From positions 1 to 50,278 of the forward strand of contig PBOG01000038.1 of NCBI GenBank assembly GCA_002724245.1: a DNA stretch of 50,278 nt. Direction: 5' to 3'. How positions within the stretch are numbered: the stretch's first letter is position 1; the number at the start of each line of letters is the position of its first letter. The DNA comes from Planctomycetaceae bacterium (GTDB lineage Bacteria > Planctomycetota > Planctomycetia > Pirellulales > Pirellulaceae). Below the pieces are notes generated by a model that was not told the DNA's origin, made no database searches, and saw nothing but the letters and a program-made list of their open reading frames with translations. The translations under genes and the position numbers were made by a program. Of the stretch, positions 2,976 through 14,667 are shown piece after piece.

Positions 2976-5900
2976 TCAGGCAAGGAACGACCAGTCGTGA
3001 TCCTGGGGGCACTCAGTTAACGAACCTGAGGCCACAAATCCGGAGAGATATTCTTTACAGGCTGCGGACTCTTGATCGTAGTCTCCGAGTTCCAGAACGT
3101 GTTCGCGGTAGTGCAATATGTCCAGGACGGTAAGCGTTTGGAGCATCCGCAGTGTGACGAGTTGCTCAGAAATACGATCGGGATGCAGCAGGAGTTTACC
3201 CAGACGGGCTTCTCCTTCGCGGTGAACTGCGTCCCCGTAGCGGGACCAGGCGAGTAACGCACCGGCGACACCATTTTCATCCTCGAGAGTTGCCTTCCAC
3301 GCCCGCCGTCGTAGACCACGATCAGCCGAACCATGTGCTTTCCAATAACGCCGAAATGCTTTGCGCAGACGAAACCGCGGCAGCAAATAGTCACGCAGCG
3401 ACGCAGTTGCTTCTGTCGTCTGGTAGACGTCCGCCAGCAACGTCTGGGAGAACAGGTGGCTGCGAATGCCATAAAGATCCGCGTGAATTGCGATGCCCGC
3501 GGCGCGCAAGTGGGAGCGAGTTGAAAACGCAGTGCTGTCGGCTCCGGTGTGTGTGGCGACGCGTTCCATCAATCCGTCGTCAAGCAGTGTCTCGAATCGG
3601 CGCATGCTGTCCTGCGAGCGTAGTCGTTCGAGGTGAATGTCGCGTTCCACAGCGGGTCCCAGTCGGAGGAATTCCAGGTCTTCGTGCGCTTCGGCGCCCT
3701 GCAGACGTGTTTCGGTTTCGCGTGGTAGTGGAGTACCTAGCCAGGCGGGGTCAAGGATGCCGCGGAGCCGTGCGCATTGCTCGGCGACGGGGCCACGAAT
3801 GCGGTTGATTTTGCGTACTGCGACTCGGAAGTCCGCTTGTGCCGAGTCGATGCGGAGATCACGCCGCTCGGGATAGCGGATTTCTTGGATTGCGTCGAGC
3901 AACCAGCCGAGTATGCGTCCCACCAGACGCAGGAGGGCACCCAGTATGAATAACGGGAGCAGGAAAATCCGGCCCGCCGCGATCCAGCCTTCGTAGAACG
4001 CGTAGAGATTGACGATCCGTTCGGCCCGTGGCAAACGATGGAGTGGTAGTGTTCCAAACGTGCGGCGAACGACGTGGCTGCGGTCTCGTTTCATGCGTTG
4101 CAGAACATCGTTCCCAAACCGTGTTCGGACATCGTCTTCACGTTGTGGGTCGGGGTCCAGGAAGTGCAGGGCAGTGAATTCGGTGGTTACGTAACGCGTT
4201 TCATCCTCGATATTCGTAGTGCGTTCCTTTTGCGTCTCGGCGTCGGTAGCCAGCCAGTTCGTGTAGGACTTCTTCAGCGAGTCGCTGGCATAGCCAAGGT
4301 CGCTCTGGGGCACCGCTCTGCGGTTATAATCGACCAGCAGGCAGGCCACCGAATGGGCGATCGACTGGGCAATGAAATGGAACCAAATGAAAGGCCCACG
4401 AAACAGGGACTTCTGCATTTCCAGGTCGACGGACGACAGTTTCTTCATGGTCTTGCTGGAAATGCGATGTGATGTCAGCAACAGTTGACGTAGTGCCGAA
4501 TTGCCGAGCAGCTGATTGGTGGCCCTTGTGTCGCCGCTGGTAAACAGCCCGCCACCCAGCCAGTCACGGTAGATCAAAACGAACCGGTCCAGAAAAGACC
4601 AGCCAGTATTCGTTACCTGGGGCGCCTCGTGGCTGCGGAGTAAGGATTGACGCATTCTCTCGATGGTCACCTGGAGGGGGGGCGAGGTGGAGGTAGACCC
4701 TTCAGGCCAATCCGGTTGGAGTACGCGCGTGTAGAGAATGGCGGCGTCGCGTTCAAGTTTTCGCGGCCGAATCATCTCCGTAAGGTGCAGGAACTGGGCC
4801 TGCACGGATTTTTCGTAAAACTCGGTGGCTTCGCGCGCCAGATGCTGGAGCCATTTGCCAAGTACCAGGAAAAACAGGCAGATACCACCGATCACCATCA
4901 CAGTAGCACCGACGACTTGCCGCAGAAAAGTGCGGGCTGATGTCAGAATAACGACGTGAAGCCCGTGTTCCGGTTCGGCCGTGCTGGAAGTTTGCGCTGC
5001 GTCCGCAGCAAGTGAGCCAGCCGGAGCCGTGGCAGCTGGCTGTATCCGAGTTCCACGGGGAATGGGGTCGGGCAATCCGATTAGTGTGAAAAGCACTTCG
5101 ATGAGTACCAGGAAGCCTCCGAACAACGCCAGCCTGATCGCAGGTCTCGCCGAACCTTTGACCAGGATACTACCAGCTCGGTCTACAAACTGGGCAGGTG
5201 TCACGGTGCCGTAAAGATCGGCGAACCAGAACCACAGGTCGTGGAACTTGCGCAGGAATGACGCCGTTCTACGGGATGCCGCCGCCACGAATTCCGCCTC
5301 GGTGTTGAGTGTCGCGTCGCGTGGTATGCAATGTCGGATGAGTGGCATCCAGCGGAACGGCGCAATACTCATCGTTTGGATAATCCGTGCAAGTTGCACC
5401 ATCATGGGTTCACCGAGTAACGGCTCGACGAGTGCTGGCTCAAGTGATTCCATGCGGTCGAGAAGCGCTTCGGCGGGAATGTCACGTGTGCCGATTCGCT
5501 GGCGACTGTTGCGAAAATGGATGCGCCGGATATCCGCAACACGGGCAAGCAGTTGTAGGCGAGCCTGGCTCACGGCGAGGCGGTCCGCCGGGGACGCTTC
5601 GAGCAACAGTCGTGACCAGATGTCATGGATCTGGTAGCAGAGCAGTTCCAGTTCCAGGTCAGCGTCGCGTTTTTCTTGTGCGTAACGCGCATATTCACCT
5701 TGAGTAGGGTGCAGAATTACATTGCAGTTGATCACATGTGAGTACTGGCGCACGACGCGATCGATACCCCGCGCCATCAGCCCCAGGGCGCGCGCAAACC
5801 GTAGTAATGGGCGCAGGCTCCGCGCGTATCGAATAATGCGGGGCAATTTCGCAAAACGCGCGAACCGTCCGGTTCGCACCAGGTCGGCTCTAGGCAGTGC

Positions 5901-6938
5901 GGTGAAGAGGAAGCCGAACGGGATCGAGGGGATAAAGTCGATCAGGAAATGTCGGCGGAACCAGCGGAGTTTGTTTTTCGCCAGTGATAGCTTGGTGAAA
6001 AACTCAACCAGGAAGCAAACGCAGGCGATGAGATCAATCGTTTCGAAAACAGACCGTGTTTGTTTCGACAACGGAAATGACCACTCGATGGTCAGTAAAG
6101 CCAACACAAGCAGGATGAGTACCAGAATGAAACGTTCAAACAAGCTGACCAGACGGATACCGAATTTTGATTCGAGCCGAGACTGTAATTGGCGTTCTTG
6201 GAGCTCGGCACGCAGACGGTTGACCCTGCTTTTGACGATGCGGCTCGATTTGGTGCGTGTGGGATCGACATGCGTAAGGTACCAATCGGCGTCATCGAGG
6301 GTGGATTCGATCTGCGTGGCAGCACGGTCCGGCGGCAAGTCGTCGATGGTGGTCAGCGTCGATACGCACTGGTCCGCTACCAGCCGCGCCCAACGCCCCA
6401 GCTGTTCTGGGGAAGCGGGGTTGTTCTTAAGCTGGTTGCGCAACAGGTCGCGTAGTTCCTCACGGGTCTCACTGACACGGTTGGTGGCGACTTCGCCGTC
6501 ACCATCGCGGCCATGAATGTCGGAGAGTAGATGTCCAGATTCTGTGAGGCGGTGAAATAGTGCTTCCAGGTCGGCATCACCAGGGTCGTCGGTCGATTGC
6601 CGGATCCACTCTTGTGCTGCCTCCTCGATCGCCTCATCGGCTAACGTACGACACTCCGCCGATTGGGCAGTTAGACCATGACGATTGCAGGCTTTTTGCC
6701 AGTGCGATGTGCGGGCCAGGAAGGCGGCCAGGCTAATCGTTTCCAGCGTGCCGTCCTCACGTTGTGCGACACGCGCCAGCGCCTCCCATTCGAGTTCGCT
6801 CAGGGCGGCGCAGCGCTGACTGGAGTCGGTAGGCCCGAAACGTTCCAACGCATGAATACGATCCCGCAATTCGGTCCAGGACGGACCGGGGTTGGCGTCC
6901 TTCGATGTGTTTGGCGGGAGGCTGCCGGGATTATTCAC
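2976..6938 (-). CDS. Large membrane protein with voltage-sensor-like module, function unknown
   Basis: The 1320-residue protein starts at a GTG (6938). Residues 1-260 are soluble and helical. A four-helix module follows: S1 about 268-286, S2 about 297-320 with E312 and K316 (VEFFTK), S3 about 331-348 with LIDFIPSIP (D334), and S4 about 353-383. S4 has basic residues every third position: R355, R358, R361, K364, R367, R370, R373, R376. That is the layout of the voltage-sensor half of ion-channel (Ion_trans) proteins. No pore helices or TVGYG-type filter follow directly; instead there are about 200 soluble residues. Two more membrane helices lie at about 600-621 and 672-697, and a hydrophobic amphipathic stretch at about 988-1017. 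The rest is charged and helical. It could be a channel with a divergent pore, a voltage-sensing regulator or a mechanosensitive-like protein. Function is not established. Confidence 0.8.
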   Translation of the reverse strand: MNNPGSLPPNTSKDANPGPSWTELRDRIHALERFGPTDSSQRCAALSELEWEALARVAQREDGTLETISLAAFLARTSHWQKACNRHGLTAQSAECRTLADEAIEEAAQEWIRQSTDDPGDADLEALFHRLTESGHLLSDIHGRDGDGEVATNRVSETREELRDLLRNQLKNNPASPEQLGRWARLVADQCVSTLTTIDDLPPDRAATQIESTLDDADWYLTHVDPTRTKSSRIVKSRVNRLRAELQERQLQSRLESKFGIRLVSLFERFILVLILLVLALLTIEWSFPLSKQTRSVFETIDLIACVCFLVEFFTKLSLAKNKLRWFRRHFLIDFIPSIPFGFLFTALPRADLVRTGRFARFAKLPRIIRYARSLRPLLRFARALGLMARGIDRVVRQYSHVINCNVILHPTQGEYARYAQEKRDADLELELLCYQIHDIWSRLLLEASPADRLAVSQARLQLLARVADIRRIHFRNSRQRIGTRDIPAEALLDRMESLEPALVEPLLGEPMMVQLARIIQTMSIAPFRWMPLIRHCIPRDATLNTEAEFVAAASRRTASFLRKFHDLWFWFADLYGTVTPAQFVDRAGSILVKGSARPAIRLALFGGFLVLIEVLFTLIGLPDPIPRGTRIQPAATAPAGSLAADAAQTSSTAEPEHGLHVVILTSARTFLRQVVGATVMVIGGICLFFLVLGKWLQHLAREATEFYEKSVQAQFLHLTEMIRPRKLERDAAILYTRVLQPDWPEGSTSTSPPLQVTIERMRQSLLRSHEAPQVTNTGWSFLDRFVLIYRDWLGGGLFTSGDTRATNQLLGNSALRQLLLTSHRISSKTMKKLSSVDLEMQKSLFRGPFIWFHFIAQSIAHSVACLLVDYNRRAVPQSDLGYASDSLKKSYTNWLATDAETQKERTTNIEDETRYVTTEFTALHFLDPDPQREDDVRTRFGNDVLQRMKRDRSHVVRRTFGTLPLHRLPRAERIVNLYAFYEGWIAAGRIFLLPLFILGALLRLVGRILGWLLDAIQEIRYPERRDLRIDSAQADFRVAVRKINRIRGPVAEQCARLRGILDPAWLGTPLPRETETRLQGAEAHEDLEFLRLGPAVERDIHLERLRSQDSMRRFETLLDDGLMERVATHTGADSTAFSTRSHLRAAGIAIHADLYGIRSHLFSQTLLADVYQTTEATASLRDYLLPRFRLRKAFRRYWKAHGSADRGLRRRAWKATLEDENGVAGALLAWSRYGDAVHREGEARLGKLLLHPDRISEQLVTLRMLQTLTVLDILHYREHVLELGDYDQESAACKEYLSGFVASGSLTECPQDHDWSFLA

Positions 6939-7317: not shown

Positions 7318-9285
7318 GTGGAATCTGTCGCTAGCCCACAGCTTGTCGCGGTCCTGACGGCGGTGCTGTTGTTCGTCGTGATTCGTTTACGCTGGAGCGG
7401 GTCGACCGCAGCGGTCGCAGCGCTGCTGACGTCCGGCGTAGTCTACTTTGTGGCGCTGCGTTGGAACGAAATTCCTGCGCCGGTTCCGGAGGTCGAAGTG
7501 CAGCTTCCGGTGCGGGAACGGTCGCTGGTGATTCGGCGCCCGCGGCAGCGTTTAGGAGATGGGTACGTCTCTTCGTCACGATGCGCGGAGTGCCATCCGA
7601 AGAATCACGCCAGTTGGCATGCTTCTTATCACCGCTCAATGACACAGTTGGCATCGTCGAAGACCGCGCTGGCACCGTTTGATGGGGTGGAAGTTCGCGT
7701 CGGTGACCAGCATGTGGAGCTTGAAGTGGAGGGTGAGCAGCTCTGGGCAACGATGGATGATCTGGATGTGCCGCCCGCTGCCAGGCCTGTGCGAATTAAG
7801 CGGCCGATTGTTTTGTCGACCGGTTCACATCACATGCAGATCTATTGGTACGCGACAGGACAGTCTCGCATTCTGGGGCAGTTGCCGATCGTCTATTTGA
7901 CGGAGGACCAACGCTGGATTCCTGCCGATGCAACGCTGCTGGCACCACCGGCTGCGGAGCCAGTGTCCAATACGGGAAAGTGGAATGAGAGTTGCGTTTA
8001 TTGCCATTCAACGCATGGGCGAACTGCACCCACCGAGACTGGAGGTGTCGATACGCAGGCGGCAGAATTTGGTATTTCCTGCGAAGCGTGTCACGGGCCC
8101 GGAGAGGCACACATCGATTTTCACCGCGGCCAGAGCGTCGACGATGCGAGTGATCCAATCGTCAATCCAGCGACGCTTTCGAACCGCTTGTCATCCCAGG
8201 TGTGTGGAGCCTGTCACGGATTTACTGCGGCGCTGACGTTCGAAGAGTACCAGCACGACCTTCTGGATGGATATCGGTATCGGCCAGGGGAAGACATCGC
8301 AAAGACCCGTTTGATTGAGGGCTTGAACGAGGAGACCCGCGCGCACGTTGGGCGATCCGGTGGTAATCAGGAAATCTATTTTCGTGAGCGATTCTGGGAC
8401 GATGGTATGGTGCGTCTCCTGGGACGCGAATACAACGCGATGATTGCCTCAGCCTGCTACACCGAAAAACAGGGGGGGATTTCTTGTTTCTCTTGCCACA
8501 ATATGCACCAGGAGGAAGATGACACACGCCGCGTTGACCAGTGGGCCGATGATCAATTGAAGCCGGCAGCGGTCAGCGATTCTGCGTGCACCCAATGCCA
8601 CCAGGCGACTACATACCAGGCGACGTCACATACGCATCACCTGGCCGAATCAAGTGGTAGCCGGTGCTACAACTGTCATATGCCCCACACTGCCTACGGT
8701 CTTCTGAAATCCGTACGCAGTCACCATATTGATCGACCAGGTGTACCCGCTGAGTTGGCTTCAGGTCGTCCGAATGCGTGTAACCTCTGTCATCTGGATC
8801 AGACGCTCCAATGGACTTCGGACTACCTGACCCGTTGGTATGGTGCGCCCGCGGTAGAACTTTCGAAGGATCAACAGACCGTTTCCGCGGCGGTTTTATG
8901 GATGTTGACCGGAGACGCCGGCCAGCGCGCGTTGGCTGCTGTCAGTATGGGACGCGATGCGCCCAGGGAAGCCAGTGGGGATGATTGGATGGCGCCTTTT
9001 CTGGCTCGGTTACTGGAGGATCCCTATGTGGCGGTGCGGTACTGTGCTGGCCGCAGTTTACGGAAGATTGACCAGTTTAGCGACGTTGAATATGACCATG
9101 TGGCGCCTGCGCAACAACGTGCCGCGGTAGCTGAACGCGTCTTGCAGGCTTGGACGGAAACGCCGCGTACTGAAACTGCGACTCGCGCTGCAACACTCGT
9201 CGACCCTGCAGGGAAGTTGCGACAAGGGGTTTTTGACCGACTTGGGGCGCAGCGAGATGACACGATCGTTAACCTGGCGGAGTAA
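7318..9285 (+). CDS. Membrane-anchored octaheme cytochrome c with HEAT-like tail
   Basis: From GTG 7318 the product has 655 residues. Two hydrophobic segments (about 7-24 and 31-47) should anchor it in the inner membrane. The soluble part contains eight CXXCH haem c attachment motifs, in order CAECH (from C89), CVYCH, CEACH, CGACH, CFSCH, CTQCH, CYNCH and CNLCH. The stretch around CEACHGPGEAH is typical of cytochrome c554-like multihaem proteins. Residues from about 520 onward have no haem motifs and look like HEAT/Armadillo helical repeats, with PYVAVRYCAGRSL. The protein probably moves electrons at the periplasmic face; donor and acceptor are unknown. It stands alone, with no oxidoreductase subunit beside it. 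The sulfatase downstream begins 207 bp later and has its own ribosome-binding site. Confidence 0.9.
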   Translation: MESVASPQLVAVLTAVLLFVVIRLRWSGSTAAVAALLTSGVVYFVALRWNEIPAPVPEVEVQLPVRERSLVIRRPRQRLGDGYVSSSRCAECHPKNHASWHASYHRSMTQLASSKTALAPFDGVEVRVGDQHVELEVEGEQLWATMDDLDVPPAARPVRIKRPIVLSTGSHHMQIYWYATGQSRILGQLPIVYLTEDQRWIPADATLLAPPAAEPVSNTGKWNESCVYCHSTHGRTAPTETGGVDTQAAEFGISCEACHGPGEAHIDFHRGQSVDDASDPIVNPATLSNRLSSQVCGACHGFTAALTFEEYQHDLLDGYRYRPGEDIAKTRLIEGLNEETRAHVGRSGGNQEIYFRERFWDDGMVRLLGREYNAMIASACYTEKQGGISCFSCHNMHQEEDDTRRVDQWADDQLKPAAVSDSACTQCHQATTYQATSHTHHLAESSGSRCYNCHMPHTAYGLLKSVRSHHIDRPGVPAELASGRPNACNLCHLDQTLQWTSDYLTRWYGAPAVELSKDQQTVSAAVLWMLTGDAGQRALAAVSMGRDAPREASGDDWMAPFLARLLEDPYVAVRYCAGRSLRKIDQFSDVEYDHVAPAQQRAAVAERVLQAWTETPRTETATRAATLVDPAGKLRQGVFDRLGAQRDDTIVNLAE

Positions 9286-9492
9286 TGCCCGCCGCCTGTA
9301 GCATGGGCGGCTGAAGCAGGTGGCTAGATTGAGTTGCGCGCAACGCGGTGCACCTCGGATCGTCTATGCCTGCCGGCAGCTTGATTCCGTTTGGAAGATT
9401 CGTGTGCTGAGACTGAGTGTGACGCTGCAATAGAGCCCAGGTGAACTGTCAAGCGAGTGTGGGCTGTCATTCAGGAGCTGGAGAAAAAAACG

Positions 9493-10986
9493 ATGTGGCG
9501 GATGATACTGGTTGCCAGTGGCGTGTGGTCGGTCCTGTCGGTGTCCATGGTCCTGGGGGCCGAAAAGCCGAATATCGTCCTCCTGTTTATCGACGATTTA
9601 GGGTGGCATGATGTCGGCTGTTACGGAAATGACTTTGTGGAAACGCCACGAATCGACCGGCTGGCTGCGGAGGGGCTCCGCTTTACCGACTTTTATGCTG
9701 CCGGCGCAGTCTGCTCTCCAACACGTTGCGCGGTACAGTCCGGACAGAACCAGGCGCGAATCGGGATCACGGCGCATATTCCAGGTCATTGGCGCCCGTT
9801 TGAACGTGTCATTACACCGATGACCACGATGGCGCTGCCACTTGAAGTGAAGACGGTGGCGGAGGCTCTTGGCGACAGCGGGTACGCGACGGGGTACGTT
9901 GGAAAGTGGCATCTCGGGAACAGCCGCAGTCACGGGCCCGGTAAGCAGGGGTACCAGTTTTCTGCTGTGATTAACGGTCCACACTTGCCGGGACGTTATC
10001 GCGTTGCAGAGCGCCCTGACTTGAAGCCCGCCGCGGGGCAGTATCGCACCGACTTCGAAGCAGATTTGGCGGTCCGGTTTATCGAACAAAACAAAACACG
10101 TCCCTTTTTCCTGATGGTTTCGCCCTATGCAGTCCACATCCCATTGGCTGCGATGTCCACCAAGGTGGAAAAGTATCGCCGCAAAGCTGGCGCTGCCGGT
10201 GACCGTCACCTACCGCACCCGGTCTATGCTGCCATGATTGAACATGTGGATGACCTGGTGGGGCGTGTCGTTGATACGATTGCTGAGACTGGGCTGACTG
10301 CGCGCACCATGATCGTCGTGACGTCGGACAATGGCGGGTTGTATCGACGTTATGACTACCAGCCACAGGTCGACCCAACGGTGACCGGGAACGGGCCACT
10401 TCGAGACGAGAAGGGGTCGCTCTACGAGGGCGGGATTCGCGTGCCACTGATCGTGAAGTATCCACCACTTGTGCCGCCTGGGAGTACCTCGGCAACCCCG
10501 GCAATCAGCTATGATTTCTTTCCCACTTTTACCGACCTTGCCGGCACACAGTTACCAGAAAACCAGGCCATCGACGGATTGAGTTTGCGGCCCGTCCTGG
10601 AGGATCCCAGTGCGGGCCTCGATCGTGAAGCGGTGCACTTTCATTACCCACACTATCATCACAGTCGGCCAGCCAGTGCAATCCGTAGTGGGAAGTGGAA
10701 ATTGATTGAGTTTCTCGATGGCACGGGTATGGAGCTGTACGATCTTGCTAGAGATATGGGTGAGAAAGAGAACCTGGCCTCGCAGCACCCAGGGCGCACC
10801 ACCGCGCTGCGCAAACAACTGCAGGTCTGGCGCGTCGCGGTCGGAGCCAGAATGCCTCTCGTGAATCCGCACTACGACAGTGCGCGGGCGGGTGAATGGT
10901 GGAACCGCAGGACGGCGCAGCCATTACACGCGGCGGGACAACTTAGGCGGCCGTTTCCGCGCACAGAGAAAGAGCAGTCGAAATGA
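9493..10986 (+). CDS. Secreted sulfatase (arylsulfatase family)
   Basis: The start is ATG 9493, preceded by GGAG at 9480-9483; an upstream in-frame GTG at 9457 lacks such support. The 497-residue protein opens with a signal peptide (MWRMILVASG... cleavage likely after VLGA). It has the sulfatase core: PNIVLLFIDDLGWHD for the Ca-binding aspartates, CSPTR with C74 as the residue converted to formylglycine, GKWHLG, and TSDNGG near the second metal-binding site. Family members cleave sulfate esters from polysaccharides or small molecules in the periplasm or outside the cell. The substrate cannot be read from sequence, and no glycoside hydrolase or carbohydrate-binding gene is adjacent. The formylglycine-generating enzyme must be encoded elsewhere. 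The stop codon lies in the loop of a predicted terminator. Confidence 0.93.
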   Translation: MWRMILVASGVWSVLSVSMVLGAEKPNIVLLFIDDLGWHDVGCYGNDFVETPRIDRLAAEGLRFTDFYAAGAVCSPTRCAVQSGQNQARIGITAHIPGHWRPFERVITPMTTMALPLEVKTVAEALGDSGYATGYVGKWHLGNSRSHGPGKQGYQFSAVINGPHLPGRYRVAERPDLKPAAGQYRTDFEADLAVRFIEQNKTRPFFLMVSPYAVHIPLAAMSTKVEKYRRKAGAAGDRHLPHPVYAAMIEHVDDLVGRVVDTIAETGLTARTMIVVTSDNGGLYRRYDYQPQVDPTVTGNGPLRDEKGSLYEGGIRVPLIVKYPPLVPPGSTSATPAISYDFFPTFTDLAGTQLPENQAIDGLSLRPVLEDPSAGLDREAVHFHYPHYHHSRPASAIRSGKWKLIEFLDGTGMELYDLARDMGEKENLASQHPGRTTALRKQLQVWRVAVGARMPLVNPHYDSARAGEWWNRRTAQPLHAAGQLRRPFPRTEKEQSK

Positions 10987-13190: not shown

Positions 13191-13913
13191 TCAACTGTTT
13201 TCCACGGCAGCCAGCACGTGATCGCGGATTGCCTCCACCCCGCCTCCGTGTCGAATCTGGGCAAACACGGTGGGGCCATTGCCTCGCATCCTGGCACTGT
13301 CTCGTTTCATCACTTCCAGATCAGCGCCGACCGCATCTGCCAGATCGATTTTGTTGACAACCAGCAGATCCGATTGGGTGACTCCTGGTCCACCTTTGCG
13401 GGGAATTTTATCCCCCCCGGCAACATCGATCACGTAAATCGTGTAATCGGCCAGCTCGCGGCTGAAATCGGCCGCCAGGTTGTCACCCCCCGACTCCAGT
13501 AGTAACAGACGCGGTTGAAATGTTTCCGTGAGTTCTTCCAGTTGAAGCAAGTTGGCCGAAATGTCCTCCCGAATCGCGGCGTGGGGGCAGCCGCCGGTTT
13601 CGACCGCCCGAATCCGTTCCTGGGGCAAGGCTTCGTTACGTGTCAGGAATTCGGCATCTTCCCGGGTGAAAATGTCATTCGTGACGACGGCGAGATTGGT
13701 TGAGTCGCGGAGTGCCTTACAGAGGGCCAGGACAAGCGCCGTCTTGCCGGTTCCGACAGGACCACCGACCCCCACGGTAAAAGCCCGTTGCGCGTAATCG
13801 CGTGTGGGAATCGGCAATTCACGTGTCGCGTATTCGCCAGGGTGATCCCAGGTCTCATGGTCGTGGCCGTGGTCGTGATCGTGGTGATGGTGGTCGTGGC
13901 CCGTTTCGTGCAT
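13191..13913 (-). CDS. ureG: Urease accessory GTPase UreG with histidine-rich tail
   Basis: UreG is the SIMIBI-class GTPase that delivers nickel to apo-urease with UreF and UreD. The 240-residue protein has the P-loop GPVGTGKTA (about residues 51-59), the nickel-binding CPH motif in [20 protein letters not shown], and the NKID specificity motif. It is about 35 residues longer than minimal UreG because of an N-terminal tail with 11 histidines in the first 24 residues, alternating with aspartates. Such tails are known to bind nickel in some UreG and HypB proteins. Start ATG 13913 has AGGA about 9 nt upstream. It follows ureF after 37 bp and reads the same way, so the two form an operon. No ureE lies in the window, and the tail may take over part of its role. 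Confidence 0.97.
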
Positions 13914-13950
13914 GCCCGGCTTCCTGATTCAGATCAAAGAGGGTGGAGAA

Positions 13951-14667
13951 CTAACTCTGAAATAGCTTGGAGTAAATACGATCGTGGGTCCCCTGAAAAA
14001 TGTCAATCAGCGGTGCTGTCTGACAGATGTCCTGGGGGAGTAGATCGGCCGTCTGGTTAACGGCTGCCTCGGCGTCTGGTCCCAGGTGGTGCTGGATGGC
14101 CTGCCCCTGCAGTGGTCCGACGATATTTAGCCGTACGGCTGCCGAGATCAAGCTTCGCAGATTACCAAACAGGAAAAGTCGCACGGCCTCTTCAACGGGG
14201 AGAGCGAGTAGTCCGGTTACGGCGCCAAAGACGGGACTGAGGTGGCCTGGTTGCTTTTCCTGGCGGCGTTGGCGATGTAGTTCGGTCAGTTCCGGAACCG
14301 GAAAGACGGTCGCGGAGGTCGAGAGAAAGGCGATTCCCTGCAGGCGACTGGCGCGGTTGGCCACGTGATTAGTCAGGAACGCGTCGCACCAGCCATCGGC
14401 AGCGGCAAAGGCACCGGCCCGGTGCGCGGCCCGGACCAGTGGAAGGTGGCTCCAGGCAACTTGCTGTAACGCGTTGCGGGCAAAGTCAAGTAATGCCGTA
14501 TCGTCGTCTACTTCCCCCCAGGCTAGGGCGGCCTCCAGACCCCCACTGTGGGCGAACCCGCCACAGGGGAAGGCTGAATCCGCCAATTGCCAGATCAGCC
14601 AGGTCTCGACAGATGCGTCCCGGTCAGTTGTCACGAGCGGAACCTTGGTTGGGTCTTTGGGGGGCAT
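13951..14667 (-). CDS. ureF: Urease accessory protein UreF
   Basis: UreF is an all-helical protein that bridges UreD and UreG and gates GTP hydrolysis during nickel insertion into urease. The 238-residue product shows the family's N-terminal region WQLADSAFPCGGFAHSGGLEAA (given in part), LQQVAWSHLPLVRAAHRA, and ALPVEEAVRLFLFGNLRSLISAAVR-like helices, where the conserved Arg/Leu-rich surface meets UreD. Length is normal for the family. Start ATG 14667 lacks a strong Shine-Dalgarno sequence. ureF is first in the leftward ureF-ureG unit and diverges from the porin gene. The roughly 300-bp gap between them must hold its promoter. Confidence 0.95.
   Translation of the reverse strand: MPPKDPTKVPLVTTDRDASVETWLIWQLADSAFPCGGFAHSGGLEAALAWGEVDDDTALLDFARNALQQVAWSHLPLVRAAHRAGAFAAADGWCDAFLTNHVANRASRLQGIAFLSTSATVFPVPELTELHRQRRQEKQPGHLSPVFGAVTGLLALPVEEAVRLFLFGNLRSLISAAVRLNIVGPLQGQAIQHHLGPDAEAAVNQTADLLPQDICQTAPLIDIFQGTHDRIYSKLFQS

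Follow-up and report, generated by a model that had tools for sequence, protein, structure and literature searches.

What does a voltage sensor serve when no channel pore follows it? The question is raised by a gene in a stretch of 50,278 nucleotides from a Planctomycetaceae bacterium (contig PBOG01000038.1, assembly GCA_002724245.1; the whole stretch is called the window here), whose protein product had been noted for a regular S4 helix of the voltage-sensor type with no visible pore behind it. The sequence and fold comparisons described below indicate that this protein carries a complete voltage-sensor domain (VSD; transmembrane helices S1 to S4), that it has no recognisable potassium, sodium or calcium channel pore, and that its remaining part is a module of another kind, built from two transmembrane (2TM) helices and a long helical region. 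Given a VSD joined to a 2TM and cytoplasmic module with no recognisable pore, the protein may turn voltage into a signal rather than into an ion current.

The open reading frame (ORF) lies where the initial annotation had placed it, on the minus strand, which had not been stated. A homologue of equal length with its start codon at the identical position (L001, contig PAQH01000003.1, Planctomycetaceae) is 82% identical to the window protein, and this is the same contig as G849, from a genome in the window's genus. The ratio of nonsynonymous to synonymous substitution rates between the two genes is 0.12 by the NG86 method and 0.15 by YN00, values that place the window gene under purifying selection; on this comparative evidence the ORF is real.

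A complete voltage-sensor domain

Residue counts refer, unless otherwise stated, to an alignment of the large proteins with 39 rows, which represent 38 distinct planctomycete proteins because rows L001 and L072 come from a single record. L072 was omitted from alignments A3, A4 and A5, the truncated L066 was omitted from A4 too, and A5 is also without L050, L059, L065, L066, L069 and L071, removed by hand as near-copies, truncated sequences or carriers of long S1-S2 insertions.

In a Pfam scan the window protein matched Ion_trans alone (E 7e-10, residues 266-386), over the first half of the profile only (positions 3-127 of 241). Ion_trans was also matched in five of six further homologues scanned, ending at profile positions 109-123 and in two of the five under the curated cut-off, and was not matched in the sixth. 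When the PDB was searched with a VSD profile built from 32 rows, chains of Nav, Cav, KvAP and bacterial Nav channels were matched (best E 7.5e-12), with S2 and S3 aligned to S2 and S3 of Nav1.5; the sole PHROGs match, over the VSD, was phrog_7872, a family of unknown function.

The two motifs on which the initial annotation relied, VEFFTK (311-316) in S2 and LIDFIPSIP (332-340) in S3, are present at the helices named, and the positions within and around them are strongly conserved. D302 of S2 is invariant (39/39); F309 is F in 33 rows and L in 6; E312 is E or D, and K316 is K or R, in every row; D334 of S3 is acidic in 36 rows (34 D, 2 E), P337 and P340 are found in all 39, and E285 of S1 is D or E in 38. 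The S2 aromatic, the S2 acid, the S2 base and the S3 aspartate are what we take to be the charge-transfer residues of gating, in which the outer S2 acid presumably also has a role. Eight basic residues do stand at an exact spacing of three in S4, at 355, 358, 361, 364 (a lysine), 367, 370, 373 and 376, and their conservation, proposed earlier as a check, is borne out: K or R accounts for 58%, 82%, 97%, 100%, 92%, 87%, 97% and 93%, respectively, of the rows with a residue at each position, the last figure being drawn from 30 rows with 9 gapped.

The predicted structure agrees with this assignment. In an AlphaFold2 model of residues 125-1320 (predicted local distance difference test, pLDDT, 80; predicted template modelling score, pTM, 0.77), S4 is placed within a VSD bundle that aligns to Kv4.2, and not as the detached cytoplasmic helix that would have spoken against a sensor, the pLDDT of S4 being low (block means 47-74). 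Foldseek aligned the model VSD to KvAP (1ors) with probability 0.99 and a TM-score of 0.65 of the target, but with E 1.3. Alignment to the VSD of Kv4.2 gave Z 10.2 and a root-mean-square deviation (rmsd) of 3.2 over 115 residues (window protein residues 260-393, S4 included), to that of Ci-VSP Z 10.1 and rmsd 4.0 over 123 residues, and to that of Nav1.7 Z 10.1 and rmsd 3.0 over 111 residues, a Z near 10 not by itself being decisive for helical models. Four transmembrane helices with S4 basic residues at every third position, the charge-transfer residues and, in the model, the VSD fold are thus found together, and sequence and predicted fold combined establish residues 261-398 as a genuine, complete S1-S4 VSD. 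The VSD segment of three large homologues (L065, L069, L071) is 64-87 residues longer than that of the window protein, through an S1-S2 insertion.

No pore of the potassium, sodium or calcium type

The missing filter motif reported for the window protein is a property of the family: the potassium, sodium or calcium filter pattern occurs in 0 of the 39 large rows, the window protein included, and in 31 of 31 short relatives with six transmembrane helices (6TM), which served as control. The two distant helices proposed at about 600-621 and 672-697 exist as hydrophobic stretches (603-621 and 675-693). By family mean, the top hydrophobic stretches of 19 residues are 270-288, 675-693, 603-621, 297-315, 992-1010 and 331-349; the helix list of the initial annotation therefore held both distant helices and missed 992-1010.

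That the two helices frame a divergent P-loop pore, as had been suggested, can be rejected. In 35 of 39 rows TM5 and TM6 stand no more than 15 residues apart, which in most of the family leaves no room for a pore helix with its filter. Longer gaps are seen in L002 (26 residues) and in the window protein and its near relative (L001 = L072; 50 residues, rich in A, P, S and T), the first part of this loop having low pLDDT in the window model. Mean net charge is about +3.0 just before TM5 (586-602), about 0 in the loop, +3.3 between S2 and S3 and -1.1 between S3 and S4; the side before TM5 is consequently taken as cytoplasmic, and the charges fit a cytoplasmic linker. An S5-P-S6 unit with filter, the mark of a channel, was not found in the large proteins, and as judged from the alignment the absence of a potassium-, sodium- or calcium-type pore from them is not ordinary.

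A module that also occurs without the sensor

The initial annotation had allowed that the two distant helices might be unrelated. They are part of a 2TM and helical module that also exists without a VSD. Four such proteins were found, of 526, 574 and 588 residues together with a 453-residue frame whose C-terminal end is lost at a contig end, in genomes G017 and G406 (among 60 module-profile matches) and in G512 and G528, each with TM5 near the N-terminus. The VSD profile matched no ORF of 90 residues or more on these four loci (2-10 kb). The large proteins align to the VSD-less group by hhalign with 99.9% probability (E 3.1e-32, 470 columns, residues 571-1293), sharing TM5-TM6 and the helical module and differing in having a VSD and in the region of 992-1010, which falls in an alignment gap. 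When a profile of the four proteins was run against 362 genomes, the same four were recovered and no further VSD-less proteins, 26 other genomes being matched through large proteins or fragments. With a profile made from residues 400-1295, at least 60 of 392 genomes of the phylum were matched, and the window genome has this one copy only.

Several motifs occur in both groups: D-x2-DG-x5-D (in the window protein G replaces the second D), WFxxI, VFG or FG after an Arg-rich stretch, and LRxxxDxEY. Their recurrence suggests a conserved function. On these alignments, residues 571 onward are a separate, undescribed module of 2TM helices and about 600 mostly cytoplasmic residues. Family searches returned no Pfam or NCBIfam family of note for the module in the 38 large proteins, and Pfam gave no match in two of the four VSD-less ones (L130 and L131). 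TrbC (weak, 3/38, best E 0.029) and six families matched in one member each were taken as chance. A profile search of the PDB met a designed bundle of diiron type (helical; E 0.0093) and, at E 0.16, ribosomal protein L3; both were put down to chance or to the general likeness of helices. Modelled alone, residues 560-1300 reached pLDDT 84 and pTM 0.82. Against the PDB, Foldseek gave this fold a best probability of 0.16 among the matches listed, none with E <= 0.001; the best VIA Z was 8.1, with rows mostly over the long-helix hairpin of TM5-TM6, which filled the aligner's list. Against viral structures the best probability was 0.14 among the matches listed. No solved or viral fold thus matched clearly, and with the list so taken up by one hairpin a known fold may have been missed.

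Channel relatives and the ordinary S4

A run of eight or more basic residues at spacing three was reached in 1 of 20,000 shuffles of the window protein, and the S4 had accordingly been called unusually regular. Comparison with the short relatives, of which there are at least 31 (28 distinct after removal of identical rows), takes this away: runs of at least eight at the same spacing occur in 25 of the 28 distinct 6TM potassium-type relatives, and among 32 large proteins the run is eight in 12 and above eight in none. By this comparison the regular S4 is ordinary, a trait common to the plain 6TM potassium-type channels of these bacteria. What survives of the proposed new architecture is a large protein of undescribed layout, in which a genuine VSD stands without a recognisable pore; the regular S4 is nothing special.

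The closest short relatives are complete channels, with Ion_trans matched to profile positions 223-239 and Ion_trans_2 present in six of six scanned, and with filters such as TVLTGGFGD or TVTTVGYGD in all 31. These 6TM potassium-type channels of Planctomycetota have the same S4 spacing as the large proteins, and 10 of 28 bear an RGxDR/K-type motif, R[GA]xD[RK] following S4 in 27 of 32 large rows; they differ in owning an S5-P-S6 unit with filter, which the large proteins are without. The window genome itself encodes such a paralogue on a separate contig (G000:C52, identical to locus L004 3-1196, plus strand), a 398-residue 6TM channel whose VSD is homologous to that of the window protein (35% identity over residues 207-394). 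Its filter, TTVLTGGFGD, is unusual in replacing TVGYGD, and TGGFGD filters are found in a group of such channels of the same family.

How the protein may work

We regard the protein as a pore-less, voltage-sensor-coupled membrane protein acting as a voltage-to-signal transducer, with a probability of roughly 0.6; the evidence supports the VSD and the modular construction, and the steps from S4 movement onward are inferred. The membrane potential would move S4, and the RGxDR helix that follows it, together with a linker of about 170 residues, would relay this movement to the TM5-TM6 hairpin, which in turn might change the state of the helical module as effector. As to origin, a VSD of the 6TM potassium-type channel kind may have been joined to the 2TM module.

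By analogy, the arrangement resembles the logic of the voltage-sensing phosphatases (Ci-VSP/TPTE), in which a pore-less VSD of matching fold is coupled to a cytoplasmic part; the putative effector in the window family is apparently not a phosphatase. The window family differs in being bacterial, in its extra TM5-TM6 and in having no Pfam phosphatase: no PTEN-like phosphatase was matched by Pfam after the VSD, and CX5R is absent from the window protein and occurs in only 16 of 39 rows, its location varying from row to row. A phosphatase or other known enzyme after the VSD was therefore rejected, no Pfam or NCBIfam family of note being found there.

Several observations count against signal transduction or weaken it. 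The low pLDDT of S4 and the limited weight of the Z values have been given above. No catalytic signature was recognised in the module motifs, in Pfam or NCBIfam or in the fold searches, so that "effector" is a guess. The stretch 992-1010 matches S3 in hydrophobicity (1.42 versus 1.38) and is covered by an AlphaFold2 helix (991-1021) whose membrane position the model does not give; it could be a seventh transmembrane helix or a helix lying on the membrane, and in the former case it would place the last 300 residues on the outer side of the membrane, where the topology proposed here would not hold. Among 28 loci taken, in 26 of which the gene was recovered, no gene neighbour was conserved, the largest neighbour cluster comprising 4 loci. 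In a VSD tree of 60 rows (32 large, 28 short) the "big" label requires 2 changes, and 28% of bootstrap trees have a branch that sets it apart from the rest; the tree favours neither direction of change between pore-bearing and pore-less forms and speaks neither for nor against a 6TM origin of the VSD. Finally, G684, C687 and G694 of TM6, conserved in 39 of 39 rows, would suit a pore too.

These small residues, which by their spacing would share one face of the helix, as in some pore helices, together with an order and topology of VSD and 2TM that mirror a 6TM channel, are the grounds for supposing that TM5-TM6 hairpins oligomerise into a new, non-P-loop pore opened by the VSD, so that the protein would be a voltage-gated channel whose pore belongs to a new class. 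This is unlikely, as a P-loop is impossible in most rows, the small residues suit helix packing equally well, and two of the four VSD-less proteins (L130, L131) have no Pfam match and so no channel domain. The presence of a VSD-related 6TM channel in the same genome instead invites the idea of an auxiliary subunit, whose VSD would pack with another channel or complex (for example the 6TM TGGFGD channel) while the module serves as scaffold; it is quite improbable, since the 6TM channel gene is on another contig, the 26 loci show no conserved neighbour, and the VSD-less form lacks the very region through which such contact would be made. Hv1/VSOP proton channels and TMEM266 likewise have a VSD and no pore domain, although the window family has the additional 2TM helices and about 600 residues, and isolated VSDs can leak according to PMC10651576. 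That the VSD itself conducts protons or leaks cations in an Hv1-like manner, the rest being scaffold, is nevertheless very doubtful: PMC10377628 puts the Hv1 selectivity aspartate at about mid-S1, none of the 39 rows has an acid between S1 positions 270 and 284, and RxWRxxR/K occurs in only two rows, neither being the window protein.

Distribution, neighbourhood and coordinates

The distribution of the family is patchy. Genome counts are lower bounds because the many-genome searches scored only 2-4 candidates per genome. Of 392 genomes sampled from the whole phylum, at least 46 have the long protein, required as one match from model position <=290 to >=1200; at the order level, with a single-sequence query, it was found in at least 7 of 296, and within the window's own family in at least 2 of 241, both in the window's genus. 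The one scan made of genome contigs gave two relatives, both Planctomycetota, and neither PADLOC nor a plasmid search gave a match.

Beside the gene in the window, a divergent neighbour at 7318-9282 (plus strand) encodes a 655-residue cytochrome c-type protein (Cytochrome_C7), followed by a sulfatase gene at 9457-10983 (plus strand). At 13194-14667 (minus strand) a gene for a CobW/HypB/UreG-type GTPase adjoins a UreF gene, as if the two belonged to a urease maturation cluster.

Coordinates of the protein, its parts (in the window) and its VSD-less relatives (on the loci named)
Feature	Residues	Coordinates	Strand	Basis or remark
Whole protein (P0001)	1-1320	2979-6938	minus	1320 residues, GTG start
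N-terminus of variable sequence, and helical bundle predicted to be cytoplasmic	1-254	6177-6938	minus	alignment; AlphaFold2 model from residue 125
S1	261-287	6078-6158	minus	alignment, model, hydrophobicity; E285 acidic in 38/39 rows
S2	292-319	5982-6065	minus	alignment; profile-aligned to Nav1.5 S2
S3	323-351	5886-5972	minus	alignment, model
S4, RGxDR motif at end	355-398	5745-5876	minus	alignment, model, spacing count
Predicted cytoplasmic linker, VSD to 2TM module	399-570	5229-5744	minus	model, hydrophobicity
Region homologous to VSD-less 2TM proteins	571-1293	3060-5228	minus	hhalign
TM5	597-621	5076-5150	minus	module model, charge, hydrophobicity
TM5-TM6 loop	622-671	4926-5075	minus	model, alignment; 50 residues in the window protein
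TM6, within predicted helix 658-720	672-697	4848-4925	minus	model, alignment, hydrophobicity
All-helical region, predicted cytoplasmic	698-1320	2979-4847	minus	models, family and fold searches; contains hydrophobic stretch 992-1010
Hydrophobic stretch with two internal arginines	992-1010	3909-3965	minus	in gap of alignment with VSD-less relatives
VSD-less 2TM protein, L130		3675-5396	minus	
VSD-less 2TM protein, L131		3089-4666	plus	
VSD-less 2TM protein, L135		1231-2994	minus	
VSD-less 2TM protein, L137		2-1360	minus	C-terminal end cut

Significance

In a 2023 review, all prokaryotic VSDs known so far are said to come with a potassium, sodium or calcium pore domain (PMC10377628); judged from sequence, the planctomycete family appears to be an exception to this rule. 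The VSD proteins presented in section 4 of PMC10651576 are voltage-gated channels, sNHE, a protozoan adenylyl cyclase with a potassium pore, Ci-VSP and Hv1, to which TMEM266 can be added from PMC13095418. None of the kinds named in that section covers a bacterial family that is conserved, has a complete VSD and is without a potassium-, sodium- or calcium-type pore. A limited search of open-licence literature found no published account of a planctomycete pore-less VSD family or of the VSD-less 2TM proteins. We would put at even odds the stronger claim that this is the first prokaryotic voltage sensor free of a channel pore, driving a new 2TM and helical effector by direct conversion of voltage into signal.

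If voltage is sensed, these bacteria would read their membrane potential without passing current, which would bear on bacterial electrical signalling and on the recruitment of VSDs to different effectors. The VSD-less relatives provide a natural comparison of the module with and without its sensor, and their function may reveal what the effector is.

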